Virus record (IMG/VR): IMGVR_UViG_3300020438_000001
Span: 64,001 to 87,235 of that record
DNA: 23,235 nucleotides
From: a virus
Direction: 5' to 3' (one strand)
Part shown: in pieces, positions 3,222-14,950 of the stretch
Numbering within the stretch: position 1 is the first letter of the stretch
How the letters are laid out: every line of letters starts with the position of its first letter
The notes under the pieces: model-generated
Seen by the model: only the letters and a program-made list of their open reading frames with translations
The model's database searches: none
Told to the model about the DNA's origin: nothing
Position numbers and translations under genes: made by a program

Positions 3222-4370
3222 TCAATATCTATACTCTAGATTTTTATTTTTATATCTATCAAAACCATAATTTACATTATGCCATTTAGATGTTACCTGC
3301 CCACGCTTGTTTTTATATGAAGTTGAATAATCTTTTTTATATGTAACTCTATCCATATTCCATAAAACATACATCTTAGTTTCTTTGTTCATGTTCTTAT
3401 ACCAAGTCTCCCATCCTGCCTTTTTATCTTTAGCAGATAACTTTTTCCAAAACTTATCAAAGTTACCTGGTCCCATATTATAAGCAGCAAAGGTTCTAGC
3501 TTTTCTTTCTTCTTTAGTTGTAGCTGATTTTACATTTTCTCTATCTTCATATATGTAATCCATGTAACGTCTTTGTGCTAATGATTGAGCAGCTACATCT
3601 GTTATCTTAGCTGTTTCTGGAATCCATCCTTTTTCTTTTGCCCATTTAAAAGTACTTGGTAAAAACTGTGCTATACCCATAGCGCCTTTAGGAGATACTT
3701 TAGAATTATCTCCTGTAGATTCTTTATAGATTTGAGCTGTAAACTCAGCATCAGTAAAATAAGGATTAGTATAAGAATTTAATTGCTTATTTACTAAATC
3801 TTGATTTATTGCATTATATGTTTTATTGCCCCATATACCATCATTAGCAATATCAAAACCATCTGTAATAACTAGATCTTGAGTCCCTTTAATAAATTCA
3901 GAATCTTCAGATTTTTCTCTATACTGCTTTATATCTGCCCACCCACTTTTATTTAAAAGAAACTTTATTTTTTCTGGGGTCTTTACCGTTACAGTTCCAG
4001 AGTCTGGGTCTATTGGAGTCCATACTGGATTATCATCAGATTGTAAATCTATAACAGGCGGTGTTACTGTTGTTGTATCTGTTGGATCACCTCCATTTTC
4101 ATAAAATTTTATTTCTGTTTCACCTGGCATTTTATATACATAATCTCCACTTGGAGTAGGAGCTTCACTACCCCCCATTTGTACACCAGGAACATATTGT
4201 GGATTATATGGACTAATTAAAGATCCGTCTGTTAAATGAGTCATCCCCATACCAGTAATATCTTCTCTACCTCCAGTCCAATCTCCTCCCATAGAATATC
4301 TTCTTTCTACTTTCTTAGAAGCATTTTTATAGGACATGTCCCTTAAATATTCATTATAGAATCTACCCAT
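3222..4370 (-). CDS. Virion-associated lytic transglycosylase (SLT-type)
   Basis: The 382-aa protein has a C-terminal lysozyme-like SLT domain from about residue 205 to 345. The likely catalytic Glu217 lies in IYKESTGD, followed by the family motif GAMGIAQFLPSTF (229-241) and AYNMGPGN (296-303). A short DGIWGNKTYNAIN segment (177-189) resembles a peptidoglycan-binding repeat. The N-terminal approximately 130 residues are Gly/Pro/Thr-rich and probably a virion anchor. Enzymes of this family cleave the MurNAc-GlcNAc bond with formation of 1,6-anhydro-muramic acid. The gene's first 8 bases overlap the portal stop, in the middle of the head genes, so it more likely helps cell-wall penetration at infection than final lysis. 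No signal peptide is present. Confidence 0.85.
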   Translation of the reverse strand: MGRFYNEYLRDMSYKNASKKVERRYSMGGDWTGGREDITGMGMTHLTDGSLISPYNPQYVPGVQMGGSEAPTPSGDYVYKMPGETEIKFYENGGDPTDTTTVTPPVIDLQSDDNPVWTPIDPDSGTVTVKTPEKIKFLLNKSGWADIKQYREKSEDSEFIKGTQDLVITDGFDIANDGIWGNKTYNAINQDLVNKQLNSYTNPYFTDAEFTAQIYKESTGDNSKVSPKGAMGIAQFLPSTFKWAKEKGWIPETAKITDVAAQSLAQRRYMDYIYEDRENVKSATTKEERKARTFAAYNMGPGNFDKFWKKLSAKDKKAGWETWYKNMNKETKMYVLWNMDRVTYKKDYSTSYKNKRGQVTSKWHNVNYGFDRYKNKNLEYRY

Positions 4371-9258: not shown

Positions 9259-10275
9259 TTATGTATATGTTTGATCTACATTCGTTCTTAAATTTAGTAC
9301 ATTTACTAGTGTATATTCAACTTGAAAATACATAGTGGGTTGAGTAGCAGCACCTATAACAGAAGGAGTAGCTAACAATAAAGGTTTATTTGTTACTGGA
9401 CCATAGGGTACTCCATAAGGATTATTACTTTCAGCATTTATTGTTACTTGATACCACCAAGATTGTGGATTCATAGAAATAATTACTTGTCTTGGAACTC
9501 CTCCAATAAATCTAGAAGTATTTGCTCCTGCGGTTGCTAGCCACCCAAATTCTATAGGATAGGTACCAGCATTCCATCCTGATCCGTTAGTTCCTATTTT
9601 ATTTACAAATATATTTCTAATATACATTATTTGATTTGGTCCTGGTGTAGGTGTAAGAGCTAAACCATTTGCAAACCCAGCGCCTGTAGGCCATCCACCC
9701 TGTTCTATTTTTGTTGTATAGATTCTACTTGCTTGTACAACTTTTCCGTTTTTACCAAAACCAGTTGTAGTTTTAAGTAAGTTCTCTTCAAAATCCAGTC
9801 CTAAAAAATTACTATCTTTAGTGTATGCGCCCATCTTAACATATCTAGGTCCTACACCACCATCAACAAAAAAGTTTTGTTCATTAGTTACTCCAATGTT
9901 TAATTCATTTCTTGCTCTTAATGTTCCATTTACATCCATAGCAGATCCAGGAGTTTGTGTTCTAAAACCAACATTTCTATTTACAGTATCTAAATATAAT
10001 GTTTCTTGACTTGTAGCATCAGAACCCATTTTTATAACACTTCCAGTATCTGTAATTTCAGAATCACCTAATGTTGTTGCATTTGTCCACTTAGCAACAG
10101 TATCCCCTGTTCCAGTTCCTTGTACAGTTCCAGCAGCCATAGGAGTAGTACCTAATTTACCATCAGATTCTACAACAACTACATCTGTAGAAGTAGACGT
10201 ATCTAGTTTTTTTAAATATACATACCATCTAAAAGTAGCTATCCACTCAAATAAATATTCTCCTATTCTTTTCAT
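9259..10275 (-). CDS. Tail-fibre-like / host-recognition structural protein (probable)
   Basis: The start is placed at the ATG at 10275, which overlaps the endolysin stop as ATGA; an upstream TTG in frame would add five residues. The 338-aa protein begins with a short hydrophobic/aromatic stretch (GEYLFEWIATFRWYVYL), then Gly/Thr/Ser-rich repeats (GTGTGDTVAKWTNATTLG) and the pattern LYLDTVNRNVGFRTQ...AMDVNGTLRARNELNIG, which is common in trimeric fibres and other beta-rich appendage proteins. The C-terminal approximately 170 residues form a separate Gly/Asn/Trp-rich beta domain that could bind a receptor. The N-terminal hydrophobic piece could be an attachment segment. Function is inferred from composition and context. 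Confidence 0.68.
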   Translation of the reverse strand: MKRIGEYLFEWIATFRWYVYLKKLDTSTSTDVVVVESDGKLGTTPMAAGTVQGTGTGDTVAKWTNATTLGDSEITDTGSVIKMGSDATSQETLYLDTVNRNVGFRTQTPGSAMDVNGTLRARNELNIGVTNEQNFFVDGGVGPRYVKMGAYTKDSNFLGLDFEENLLKTTTGFGKNGKVVQASRIYTTKIEQGGWPTGAGFANGLALTPTPGPNQIMYIRNIFVNKIGTNGSGWNAGTYPIEFGWLATAGANTSRFIGGVPRQVIISMNPQSWWYQVTINAESNNPYGVPYGPVTNKPLLLATPSVIGAATQPTMYFQVEYTLVNVLNLRTNVDQTYT

Positions 10276-10790
10276 AATCTTGGCCCGCAATCTGGAGATA
10301 ATCCTCCGGTTCTTGTTTCATGCTTTTCTGTATGCATATATTTAGTTTTTCCAAATTCATCTTTATATGCTACAGTTAACTTCCTTCTATTTTTTCTATG
10401 AGTTACAAAGCTAACATGAATCCAATTAGGATTATTATCATCTCCAAATTCCCATATCATTTGATCAAAAAGAAGATTATTTTTTATATAGTGATACATC
10501 TCAGCATTTGTTTTGTGCCCAAATGTATCATCAATATCCATTGCCTGACCTTTCATATGCTGTGAAGTTTTAGATCCTCCAATAGCAGTATTTAATTTTT
10601 TACCTCTAAAAAAACTATTAATTTTTATTGGTCCTCCTACCCATTCTCTTAAAGGTTCAAATACATTCTCTGCAATTTCCATCATACATTTTAACTGATC
10701 TGGCCCAGGAGTATTATCTATTCCTCTTCGCAATGCTGTTCTACTATAGATGCCTTCTTTATAACTTACATGATCACTTATTTTTGTCAT
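10272..10790 (-). CDS. Peptidase M15 endolysin (cell-wall amidopeptidase)
   Basis: The protein is taken as 172 aa from the ATG at 10790. It starts MTKISDHVSYKEG...TALRRGIDNTPGPDQ, the usual N-terminus of phage M15-type D-Ala-D-Ala or L-Ala-D-Glu peptidases. The zinc motif SQHMKGQAMDID supplies the His and Asp ligands, and WIHVSF near the C-terminal end supplies the last His. The frame stays open upstream to 10952, but those 54 extra residues are a low-complexity Lys/Leu stretch overlapping the CDGTH micro-gene and are not typical of the family. The gene follows that micro-gene after one base (TAA A ATG) and overlaps the fibre gene by 4 bases. It probably cuts peptide stems of peptidoglycan at lysis; no signal peptide is seen, so a holin would be needed. 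Confidence 0.87.
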   Translation of the reverse strand: MTKISDHVSYKEGIYSRTALRRGIDNTPGPDQLKCMMEIAENVFEPLREWVGGPIKINSFFRGKKLNTAIGGSKTSQHMKGQAMDIDDTFGHKTNAEMYHYIKNNLLFDQMIWEFGDDNNPNWIHVSFVTHRKNRRKLTVAYKDEFGKTKYMHTEKHETRTGGLSPDCGPRL

Positions 10791-10791
10791 T

Positions 10792-10962
10792 TTAGCAGCA
10801 TTTAGTTCCACACCATCCGAGTTGGATTTTATTTCCTGTAATTTTACAGACTCCTTTACAGACTGCTTCTTTAACTTTTGTAAGAGTACTTTTAATTTTT
10901 TCATGAGTGCCATCACACCATCCTTCCAAATTACTTGTTTGTCCACATTCACATTTTTTCAT
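10792..10962 (-). CDS. CDGSH-type (CDGTH) cysteine-rich micro-protein
   Basis: A 56-codon frame from the ATG at 10962 encodes a protein starting MKKCECGQTSNLEGWCDGTH. The CxC followed by CDGTH closely matches the iron-sulfur CDGSH signature C-x-C-x2-(S/T)-x3-P-x-C-D-G-(S/A/T)-H; the spacer is one residue longer and the Pro is absent. Five further Cys follow (CKGVC, WCG, KCC at the C-terminus). If the family assignment holds, three Cys and one His bind a 2Fe-2S cluster. It overlaps the end of the preceding 44-aa gene by 14 bases and stops one base before the endolysin ATG, so it is embedded in the lysis cassette. The function is unknown; the motif is seen, the cluster is inference. Confidence 0.72.
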   Translation of the reverse strand: MKKCECGQTSNLEGWCDGTHEKIKSTLTKVKEAVCKGVCKITGNKIQLGWCGTKCC

Positions 10963-11083
10963 TATTATTATTTTTTAATTTATACATTATATACCCCAAC
11001 ATAGGAGTACCCATCAATAGTGTTAATAAACTAGGATGTGGTTCCCCACATAATCCTAGTGCGTGTCTTAAAAATTCCCACAT
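10949..11083 (-). CDS. 44-aa small hydrophobic protein of the lysis region
   Basis: The ATG at 11083 opens a frame of 44 residues starting MWEFLRHALGLCGEPHPSLL. A hydrophobic stretch with Pro and Gly (LLTLLMGTPMLGYIMYKL) is followed by an Asn/Lys-rich tail. It begins two bases after the stop of the 74-aa membrane protein and overlaps the CDGTH gene by 14 bases, typical of coupled translation. It is probably membrane-associated, and its place just ahead of the endolysin makes it a candidate for the lysis accessory set. No family is recognised with certainty. Confidence 0.62.
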   Translation of the reverse strand: MWEFLRHALGLCGEPHPSLLTLLMGTPMLGYIMYKLKNNNNEKM

Positions 11084-11085
11084 AT

Positions 11086-11310
11086 TTATTTTTTTGCAAA
11101 TTTTTCTAATCCTGCAATTCCAAAACATCCTAATACGAGGACAAGGAATGAGTCATAAACAAATTCATTAATTACTAAATCTTTTCCTATCCAACCTGTA
11201 AGCAGGTCAGCCAACATGATTAAAACCATAATACAAAAAGCAATAAAACCTACTATTGTTTTTTCGTTCCAATCATTATTATTTTTAAATATTTCTATAA
11301 ATTTACTCAT
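11086..11310 (-). CDS. 74-aa membrane protein, holin candidate
   Basis: The start is set at the ATG at 11310 (MSKFIEIFKNNND); the frame is open further upstream, but that region has Cys-rich, low-quality sequence and lies in the coding space of the neighbouring micro-gene. Two hydrophobic segments are visible: roughly residues 18-36 (VGFIAFCIMVLIMLADLL) and 50-68 (VYDSFLVLVLGCFGIAGL), with a charged N-terminus and a Lys-rich end. Two helices and about 75 residues fit small phage holins, and the endolysin lies about 300 bases downstream in the same operon. The holin role is inferred; other membrane roles are possible. Confidence 0.68.
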   Translation of the reverse strand: MSKFIEIFKNNNDWNEKTIVGFIAFCIMVLIMLADLLTGWIGKDLVINEFVYDSFLVLVLGCFGIAGLEKFAKK

Positions 11311-11321
11311 TATTTTATATT

Positions 11322-11423
11322 TTATATTATTGTTCCTAACAAATACATAACAACCATAACAGCAATATATACACCTAAAATCTTCCAACCTAATACCTCT
11401 TGTTCTTTATTGTTGTGATTCAT
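11322..11423 (-). CDS. 33-aa single-helix membrane micro-protein
   Basis: A short frame from the ATG at 11423 encodes MNHNNKEQEVLGWKILGVYI and continues to LLGTII, ending in TAA. The N-terminal part is polar and the last approximately 20 residues (from GWKILGVYIAVMVVMYLLG) form one transmembrane helix. Its first 17 bases overlap the end of the preceding gene in another frame, and it lies 11 bases before the 74-aa membrane protein. Size and context resemble other small lysis or envelope-acting phage proteins, but no function can be assigned. Confidence 0.5.
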   Translation of the reverse strand: MNHNNKEQEVLGWKILGVYIAVMVVMYLLGTII

Positions 11424-12085: not shown

Positions 12086-12307
12086 TTAATTATTTTTACA
12101 TCCTTCAATTTTTGCTAACTCTTTTTCTAGTTCAACTATACGATCATCATTATCATTAATGATCTTAATTTTTTTTTCTAATCTTTTTTCTAACACGAGT
12201 ATATCTTCTCCAAGTTGTACAATTTGACTATATGCTATACCCATACTAAAAATAACTCCCATTATCCATATTATATTACCTATGCTTATAGTAAAATCTT
12301 TTTTCAT
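12086..12307 (-). CDS. 73-aa membrane-anchored coiled-coil protein, possible spanin-like
   Basis: Residues about 7-27 form a hydrophobic helix (SIGNIIWIMGVIFSMGIAYS), followed by a heptad-like, charged segment (VLEKRLEKKIKIINDNDDRI) that ends in a Cys near the C-terminus (KIEGCKNN). This N-in anchor with a periplasmic coiled coil resembles an inner-membrane spanin, but no matching lipoprotein partner is certain. The ATG overlaps the stop of the upstream Cys-cluster gene as TAATG, suggesting coupled translation. Confidence 0.6.
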   Translation of the reverse strand: MKKDFTISIGNIIWIMGVIFSMGIAYSQIVQLGEDILVLEKRLEKKIKIINDNDDRIVELEKELAKIEGCKNN

Positions 12308-12726
12308 TAATTAGCTATTTTTGGCCATCTATTATCAGGACAATCAGATGTTTTCCATCCTGCTTTAACTGATAATACACAACCACACTTTGTACAAGTT
12401 CCTTCAGATCTAAACGGACATCTTTCACAAATTCCTAGTCTAGCTGCCATTTGATCTTTAGTTACCTTACTCATTCCATCAGCTACGTGATTAGCTAAAG
12501 CCTCTCCTAAATTTAAAGCCTTAGTAAATAAAGAAGGTGATTTTTGCTGTTTATTTTTTTCCTTCTCGGCTTTCTCCCTTTCCTGATTTTCTTTTGTGTG
12601 TGGAAAAGGTTTGCCCGCATTTATTTGAGGAGGAACTGCTTCGTATCCTAATTTACTATTTACTAAAGACGAATAAGTTTTGTTACTCGTTGCTGGTTTT
12701 TTATTTTTATTACATCCACATCCCAT
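12307..12726 (-). CDS. Zinc-type Cys-cluster protein, 139 aa
   Basis: The N-terminus reads MGCGCNKNKK, then a Lys/Glu/Gln-rich linker, then a C-terminal Cys cluster: Cys100-x2-Cys103, Cys111-x2-Cys114-x-Cys116 and Cys129, within ICERCPFRSEG and TKCGCVLSVKAGWKTSDCPD. The spacing suggests a zinc ribbon. Proteins with this type of C-terminal cluster are frequent in phages of several groups, but their function is not known to me. Six C-terminal Cys and two at the N-terminus make it the second most Cys-rich product of the operon. It is not a classic lipoprotein because no signal helix precedes the Cys. Confidence 0.72.
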   Translation of the reverse strand: MGCGCNKNKKPATSNKTYSSLVNSKLGYEAVPPQINAGKPFPHTKENQEREKAEKEKNKQQKSPSLFTKALNLGEALANHVADGMSKVTKDQMAARLGICERCPFRSEGTCTKCGCVLSVKAGWKTSDCPDNRWPKIAN

Positions 12727-13294: not shown

Positions 13295-14950
13295 TTAATA
13301 ATTTCCATTATCTCCACACTCTTCACAATTTTGCGCGCCTTCACACGGACAATCAGGATCTGGTTCAGGATCTGGGTCTGGTGGTGGCGGAGGCGGTGGT
13401 GAACAACAAGTAGCACTGTAATTTGGATCACCTGTAATACAATTAAGTGGTGGATTTCCTAGAACCTGTCCGCTAATATTCATATCTGGATAACTATTCC
13501 CTCCTCCTGAAAAATTAGTTATTTCACATGTGTAGTTACCCACAGCGTGTCCCCAAGATTCCCAACATATTAAACTAAATGAAGTAACACCAGCAGGAGG
13601 ATTACCTGTTCCGAATGTAAGAATAGATGTACCTGCTACACCATCTTTAACTCCACTAGTTACAATATTTCCACCCCCATCTTTTACAGTCCAAGTAAAT
13701 GTAGAATTATTACCACTATTACATGCGCCTATGGCTTGAATTTCCCATCCTATTTTTCCGTCTGAATTATTACCTGTACAATTTCCACTTGCATTCTGGC
13801 AATTCTGGCAGAACTGACTATTACAAGAAGACCCTTGGAAAGTACAAGAAACTCCAGCAGCCCAACCTCCACAACCATTTAGATTCATACATGAATGTGA
13901 TGTGGTACCTATGTAAGCATAATGCCCATTACTTGGATTTACGGATGGAATATTAGGATCCGCCGCTAGTGCAGCTACGAAGGAATGAATATCATCAGTA
14001 TTTGAGCCCGCATAGCCTGCAATTATCATATCATTCATAAAGTCTTGCCATATTTGCCAAGTATATCCATTAAACTGAGCATAAGGAGATGCTGCTGGTA
14101 TACCGCCTAGGCTAAATTTCCACAGAACTACCATAGAATTTCCTCCAGGAGTATTTTCACAAAAAGTAGTTTGTCCTGGTAAATTTATACACCCCATCCA
14201 TTTTATCTTGTTTACTGGGGTAGTCTGTAATCCGTTTGCCGAATCTGATATATGACATAATGCTTGAAGATGTGATGATATTCCTGGACACTCTGCAGTT
14301 CCACCACAAATACCCGGAGTAGATGGAAGACCACCTCCTGGACAGTTACCAACACTACACGCATCATCACAATGATAACATGTGTCAGAAAAATCAACTA
14401 GACCATCAGTACAAGTCCAGTCTGCAGCAGGTCCTGATCCTGGAGGCCAACTTGTTCCGAAAGGAGCATTTGGGTCAACTGGATTTTGTGCTATCCATTC
14501 ATCATATGTATATTCATTTACTTCACCTGTACCAGCTATATGCTCTCTTAATGCTATTGCTTTAGAAGCTTTTTCATTAGCTCTCCTTGTTTTTCTAGCC
14601 TCTTGAGCTTTTGTCTGATCTATACCACTTGCTGTAGTGTCTACATGATCAGGTATATGATTAGTTGGAGTATATTCACTAGTTGTACCAAATACCGCAT
14701 TCCATTCAGATGCAGTATATCCTTTTATTTTAACTGCATTTAACCCCATACCATTTAGTGCAAGATCATCAGGATTCTCTTCCCTATTAAAAGGATCTAA
14801 TATAGATCCCTGAGCTGCGCTATCTAGATTAGTATGCTTGTAAGTACCATTTAATAGAATAATATCCAAAAACGCTTGAGCTTTGGATATAGATTCTTGC
14901 GTATCCATCTCTATAGAGCCTACCCCCGGTATTTCAATTAAATTTGCCAT
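13295..14950 (-). CDS. Large cysteine-rich, proline-tailed virion protein (fibre/spike candidate)
   Basis: The 551-aa protein has three parts. Residues 1 to about 165 are soluble and helical, with a basic segment (ARKTRRANEKASKAIALREH). Residues about 170 to 500 hold more than 25 Cys, many as CxxC or CxC-like pairs, mixed with Gly, Asn, Ser and Trp in beta-type sequence. The end has a run of seven Pro, then alternating Asp/Pro, then Cys pairs (CPCEGAQNCEECGDNGNY). No signal peptide is seen, as expected for a virion protein. It probably is an exposed, cross-linked or metal-binding appendage. The ATG overlaps the stop of the upstream gene by one base. Receptor binding is only a guess. Confidence 0.72.
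   Translation of the reverse strand: MANLIEIPGVGSIEMDTQESISKAQAFLDIILLNGTYKHTNLDSAAQGSILDPFNREENPDDLALNGMGLNAVKIKGYTASEWNAVFGTTSEYTPTNHIPDHVDTTASGIDQTKAQEARKTRRANEKASKAIALREHIAGTGEVNEYTYDEWIAQNPVDPNAPFGTSWPPGSGPAADWTCTDGLVDFSDTCYHCDDACSVGNCPGGGLPSTPGICGGTAECPGISSHLQALCHISDSANGLQTTPVNKIKWMGCINLPGQTTFCENTPGGNSMVVLWKFSLGGIPAASPYAQFNGYTWQIWQDFMNDMIIAGYAGSNTDDIHSFVAALAADPNIPSVNPSNGHYAYIGTTSHSCMNLNGCGGWAAGVSCTFQGSSCNSQFCQNCQNASGNCTGNNSDGKIGWEIQAIGACNSGNNSTFTWTVKDGGGNIVTSGVKDGVAGTSILTFGTGNPPAGVTSFSLICWESWGHAVGNYTCEITNFSGGGNSYPDMNISGQVLGNPPLNCITGDPNYSATCCSPPPPPPPDPDPEPDPDCPCEGAQNCEECGDNGNY

Follow-up and report, generated by a model that had tools for sequence, protein, structure and literature searches.

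A CDGSH-like microprotein family in phages

A 56-aa open reading frame (ORF) that adjoins the M15 endolysin gene of a crAss-like phage is, judging by its conservation, a genuine phage gene, as the earlier note on this DNA had proposed. Its product belongs to a large, widespread phage family without a name, which consists mostly of stand-alone proteins of ~21 to 60 aa. The explanation that best accounts for the data overall, and that we consider rather probable, is that of a metal-binding phage microprotein with a variant of the CDGSH loop, acting as an adaptor or regulator late in infection.

The analyzed DNA (the window; 23,235 nucleotides) is a portion of an 87,235-base virus record that encodes a Crassvirus major capsid protein (Pfam ID PF23898, E = 2.7e-144) with at most 44% identity to gut crAss-like phages. 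Its lysis region contains the following features:

10272..10790, minus strand: M15 peptidase endolysin, 172 aa (Pfam ID PF08291, E = 1.1e-14; phrog_894 endolysin, E = 1e-26)
10962..10792, minus strand: CDGTH microprotein gene, 56 aa, ATG at 10962 and TAA at 10792-10794; homologues in L001-L014
10795..10860, minus strand: Cys-rich C-terminal half of the microprotein, with C35, C39, C51, C55, and C56 (A1 alignment)
10903..10953, minus strand: Cys3His motif C4-E-C6-G-Q-T-x4-G-x-C16-D-G-T-H20 (CxC-x9-CDGTH), from the sequence, IMG/VR scans, and A2 alignment invariants
10949..11083, minus strand: 44-aa ORF (MWEFLRHALGLCGEPHPSLL...), overlaps the microprotein start; found in L030, missing from most close relatives
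11086..11310, minus strand: putative holin, 74-aa membrane protein just upstream, conserved in relatives
11322..11423, minus strand: single-helix membrane peptide, 33 aa, upstream of the holin-like gene

The microprotein sequence begins with MKKCECGQTSNLEGWCDGTH (full translation, MKKCECGQTSNLEGWCDGTHEKIKSTLTKVKEAVCKGVCKITGNKIQLGWCGTKCC). The ORF lies where the earlier note had placed it, at positions 10792 to 10962, on the minus strand, with an ATG start and a TAA stop. The stop was correctly described as ending one base ahead of the endolysin start (TAA at 10792-10794 versus ATG at 10790), and the reported overlap with the upstream 44-aa ORF (11083..10949) amounts to 14 nt. In its longer reading, the holin-like gene shows a weak match to the phrog_689 holin (E = 0.094).

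Conservation and distribution of the motif

A scan of IMG/VR found in-frame matches to CxC..(S/T)x4GxCDG(S/T)H in at least 119 contigs, nearly all of them within ORFs, and two out-of-frame patterns of comparable specificity (gaps of 9 and 12 versus 13 bases) had no matches in IMG/VR. The 92 distinct proteins of up to ~60 residues among the matches listed are mostly stand-alone, 21 to 30 aa in length, and include three from bacterial genomes. Their consensus is K-C-x-C-G-(N/K/Q)-T-x-(N/D)-P-(N/D/E)-G-x-C-D-G-(S/T)-H; among these 92 listed sequences, the first Cys is preceded by Lys in 48, by Gln in 20, and by Pro in 8, and position 4 is Gly in 91, even though the first scan did not impose it. 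Since the positions written into a search motif are bound to be found, the ligands were freed one by one. His, when left free in the IMG/VR pattern, was still found in 117 of the 120 matches listed, and the first Cys in 117 of 118; the four exceptions resemble chance matches, judged by their sequences. The Cys and His positions on whose conservation the earlier note had staked its reading are retained in relatives: close homologues occupy the same slot in ~10 crAss-like phages (A1 alignment), and the four ligands are invariant in the A2 alignment. At the Ser/Thr positions, codons from both Ser boxes and for Thr occur but none for Arg, Cys, or Trp, which the pattern also permits; at position 16, nine codons are spread over TCN, AGY, and ACN. 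This codon usage and the invariance of the ligands show that selection acts on a protein, and specifically on these residues.

The earlier note had regarded the protein as unusual; it turns out to be one of many and not unique to the window phage. The expectation that automatic annotation would likely miss the gene was borne out: searches of Pfam, NCBIfam, and PHROG with the microprotein identified no family, yet these very short genes occur on so many viral contigs and often adjoin lysis genes. A tblastn comparison of two members with 50,697 phage records returned only random-looking matches, such short queries being near the detection limit, and the literature search found no paper that describes the family or links CDGSH to phage lysis or viromes. 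The loop is rare overall in the cellular genomes sampled, being sporadic in Brevibacillaceae (5 of 39 genomes) and found in none of the 397 other Bacillota genomes sampled. Stand-alone members of 25 to 26 aa are seen in Brevibacillus and Paenibacillus genomes (L094-L097 and L216-L220); in the two bacterial loci inspected by eye, L095 and L097, no obvious prophage surrounds the member.

Relationship to CDGSH proteins and the nature of the metal center

CISDs are defined by the signature PhiCXCXX(S/T)XXXPPhiCDG(S/T/A)H together with an N-strand, a P motif, and a beta-sandwich pairing two loops, and are described as requiring a beta-sandwich dimer (Lin et al. 2011, PMC3174974). In the CISD/NEET family (Pfam ID PF09360), especially its prokaryotic types 3, 4, and 6 (3tbo, 3tbm, and 3tbn), the CxCGx(S/T)...CDG(S/T)H ligands and second shell come in the same order as in the phage proteins. 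The latter possess all four ligands of the 17-residue CISD motif (C2, C4, C13, and H17) and the complete second shell of (S/T)7, D14, G15, and (S/T/A)16, which was partly imposed by the search pattern. However, the near-identity to CDGSH claimed in the earlier note is not supported as worded. The stretch from CxC to the next Cys is x9 in the window protein (CECGQTSNLEGWCDGTH) versus x8 in canonical CDGSH, which makes the loop one residue longer, and the conserved Pro is replaced by x-Gly (the scan imposed this Gly, which is nevertheless present in the A1 alignment too). In place of the hydrophobic Phi1, the first Cys is usually preceded by Lys or Gln, and the N-strand, the P motif, and the beta-sandwich dimerization module are all missing; in the window protein, the motif begins at residue 4. 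Going by their sequences, the phage proteins alone cannot form the CISD beta-sandwich dimer.

The window protein has no match to Pfam PF09360, and its best relative scores 15.7 bits versus a gathering score of 29.5. In a search of the PDB with a profile built from 72 family members, CDGSH proteins rank first (3tbn, E = 7.6e-5; 3tbm, E = 0.0033), and the alignment opens a gap of one residue in the loop. The AlphaFold2 model of the window protein (mean pLDDT of 82) has an ordered loop, a helix at residues 19-42, and no strand of three or more residues. Foldseek/VIA searches with it gave no significant fold match, the top Foldseek PDB match being the type 4 CISD 3tbm (rmsd of 1.5 over 22 alignment columns, E = 4), a resemblance that is only suggestive. 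Because they depart from CISDs in spacing, proline, Phi1, fold, and Pfam score, the phage proteins are not CISDs as defined, nor canonical members of the CISD/NEET family; to judge from the shared motif, they act like, or descend from, the CDGSH loop.

What stands of the possible iron-sulfur or zinc protein in a lysis cassette that the earlier note had envisaged is a real, conserved small cassette gene with a CDGSH-like Cys3His site that very probably binds metal, be it 2Fe-2S or zinc; its identification as a canonical CISD does not stand. Conservation of the second shell favors [2Fe-2S], whereas the tiny size and the missing dimer module favor zinc. In the former case, the microprotein would be a minimal [2Fe-2S] protein with a CDGSH-type cluster, its second module coming from self-association or a partner, and might sense redox state or oxygen/NO within the lysis cassette. 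We put this forward tentatively: the ligands and second-shell residues shared with CISDs, the profile match to 3tbn and 3tbm, and the superposition of the model loop on 3tbm speak for it, but the proteins lack the Phi1, P11, spacing, N-strand, and P motif of CISDs (PMC3174974) and fall under the Pfam cutoff, and AlphaFold may merely recall the CDGSH loop.

In the latter case, which is conceivable but by no means assured, the loop would be a zinc knuckle holding one Zn(II) in the Cys3His site, like the short SEC-C tail of SecA, and would work as a small protein-interaction tag, either stand-alone or terminal. The SEC-C motif, the C-terminal zinc-binding tail of SecA, comprises ~20 residues with a metal site of the CxC-x8-C(H/C) type and is a modular element found at protein termini. 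As described here from general knowledge, it is like the phage loop in size (~20 residues), modular use, and terminal placement but differs from it in spacing and last ligands and lacks the CDGSH signature. A zinc knuckle would also fit proteins of 21 to 26 aa that are too small for the NEET fold, the terminal, modular use of the loop (for example, C-terminal in XkdF-like proteases and N-terminal in a 103-aa protein), its extra residue, and the loss of the proline. However, an invariant second shell of Asp-Gly-Ser/Thr is not required by a zinc knuckle (the invariance of the Asp and Gly has been tested only in part, as both were fixed in the search pattern). The arrangement of Ser/Thr, Gly, and CDG(S/T)H reproduces that of the [2Fe-2S] loop, and CDGSH proteins head the PDB profile search. 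With a cluster in the loop, these would count among the smallest Fe-S proteins in nature and would point to phages that adjust lysis to metal or redox conditions; with zinc, the loop would be a widespread minimal interaction tag.

Reading frame and endolysin start

That the 56-aa ORF is no gene but a frame accidentally open within an N-terminal extension of the endolysin from GTG 10952 is most improbable. The +1 frame does stay open in every close relative, with similar dN/dS, but such an extension is impossible for 61 of the 67 other endolysins of the family, in which an in-frame stop lies no more than 13 codons ahead of the conserved start. In addition, the motif is found again in unrelated DNA contexts, its codons varying synonymously, and chance alone predicts an open +1 frame. 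The dN/dS values among the closest relatives (0.51 for the microprotein frame versus 0.58 for the overlapping +1 frame) do not separate the two frames and are uninformative in this clade because the frames are entangled. The openness of the +1 frame needs no explanation, since after shuffling of the synonymous codons of the microprotein it stays open with a probability of 0.33 to 0.86. The GTG at 10952 was rejected as the endolysin start because of the upstream stops and the chance expectation of an open frame, in agreement with the earlier note, which had preferred the start at 10790.

Lysis cassettes and fused copies

An M15 hidden Markov model (HMM) was built from 80 endolysin loci and then run on the motif loci. 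In 22 of the 25 distinct M15-bearing loci, the microprotein gene is located within 450 nt of the M15 endolysin gene on the same strand (expected for random positions, 5.3; P = 1.5e-13), upstream in 11 cases and downstream in 11. Clustering of the neighbors revealed a recurrent set that consists of a 46-aa membrane protein, a 136-aa membrane/coiled-coil protein, a 59-aa membrane peptide, the M15 endolysin, and a holin (phrog_3427, E = 1e-12); firm family matches exist for just the endolysin and the holin, the remaining three being classed as lysis genes from their position. In 62 of the 101 stand-alone loci, one or more of these five genes lie within three genes of the microprotein gene, and in 43 at least two do (counts that include duplicates). 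This recurrent same-strand linkage to endolysin and holin genes marks the microprotein as a predicted component of the phage lysis cassette. Its gene lies in or adjoins known M15-peptidase cassettes (phrog_894 endolysin, phrog_3427 holin), and the microprotein itself is covered by no PHROG.

The role of the loop is not confined to lysis, because no lysis gene was recognized near 39 of the 101 stand-alone members and nearly all of the fused ones. XkdF-like prohead proteases (Pfam ID PF14550, E = 1.7e-12) carry a CDGSH-like loop as a C-terminal tail:

L122, 1914-3677, plus strand: XkdF-like protease with the loop tail
L202, 2511-4082, plus strand: XkdF-like protease with the loop tail
L138, 4374-5693, minus strand: XkdF-like protease with the loop tail

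The loop also forms the N-terminus of a 103-aa protein and is found within proteins that are similar in one segment to a prohead-protease inhibitor (phrog_8608, E = 9e-5).

Inspection by eye of L028 and L037 showed, ahead of the holin-like gene, an exported thioredoxin-like protein of ~131 to 137 aa and a 92-aa membrane/coiled-coil protein that is possibly spanin-like. A second cell-wall enzyme is encoded in the window outside the lysis cassette, a 382-aa protein (3222-4370, minus strand) with a transglycosylase SLT domain (E = 2.4e-11).

Proposed role

We propose that the microprotein binds one metal center through its 17-residue Cys3His loop, CxCGx(S/T)x4GxCDG(S/T)H, which would be a variant of the CDGSH [2Fe-2S]-binding loop, one residue longer and without the NEET dimer fold; in crAss-like phages of the window's group, a helical Cys-rich tail would be attached to this loop. 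The gene is probably coexpressed with those for the holin-like protein and the endolysin, and its position suggests a role in lysis. More speculatively, its place in a late cassette, the invariant site, and the modular reuse of the loop lead us to regard the product as most likely a small adaptor or regulator of lysis or other late proteins in late infection, for example, through metal- or redox-dependent binding of lysis membrane proteins or of the zinc-dependent M15 endolysin. Control of this endolysin is one concrete, if speculative, possibility, and it cannot be the sole role because copies without M15 exist. A bolder proposal, which we consider rather unlikely, is that of an undescribed family that packs a complete metal center, possibly [2Fe-2S], into ~20 residues and acts as a recurrent metal- or redox-sensitive controller of lysis that has also been grafted onto capsid-maturation proteases.

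The Cys-rich C-terminal half

The earlier note had counted six extra cysteines past the motif; there are five (listed above). In relatives of the L006 type, a Cys occupies every fourth residue of the C-terminal half (positions 35, 39, 43, 47, 51, and 55), a spacing that would line them up along one side of a helix, and the window copy lacks two of these. In L028, L030, and L037, the same slot holds a protein of 37 to 39 aa that resembles only the Cys-rich half (one pairwise comparison gave 50% over 22 residues, with E = 7e-5) and has no CDGTH loop. The 56-aa protein looks like a composite of two modules because its Cys-rich half occurs separately in these loci. A reading of the L028-type Cys-rich protein as a lipoprotein or spanin was dropped on inspection by eye, as it has no proper lipobox. 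In the microprotein of L010 (4829-4996), the N-terminal half is of the window type and the C-terminal half of the L006 type, an apparent recombination inside a 168-nt gene.

Other cysteine-containing proteins were observed as well. In the window, a 139-aa protein (12307-12726, minus strand; Pfam DUF6171, E = 5e-7) has the N-terminus MGCGCNKNK and a Cys4-type segment (CERCPFRSEGTCTKCGC), and a cysteine-laden 551-aa protein (13295-14950, minus strand) has the stretch PPPPPPPDPDPEPDPDCPCEG near its C-terminus. A 96-aa protein in L190 (3130-3417, plus strand) contains two Cys-His loops, CGCGRSPTGKCIGWH (CxC-x7-CxGxH) near the N-terminus and CICGRTQDPNGNCDGSH near the C-terminus, which suggests a wider class of variable loop length.
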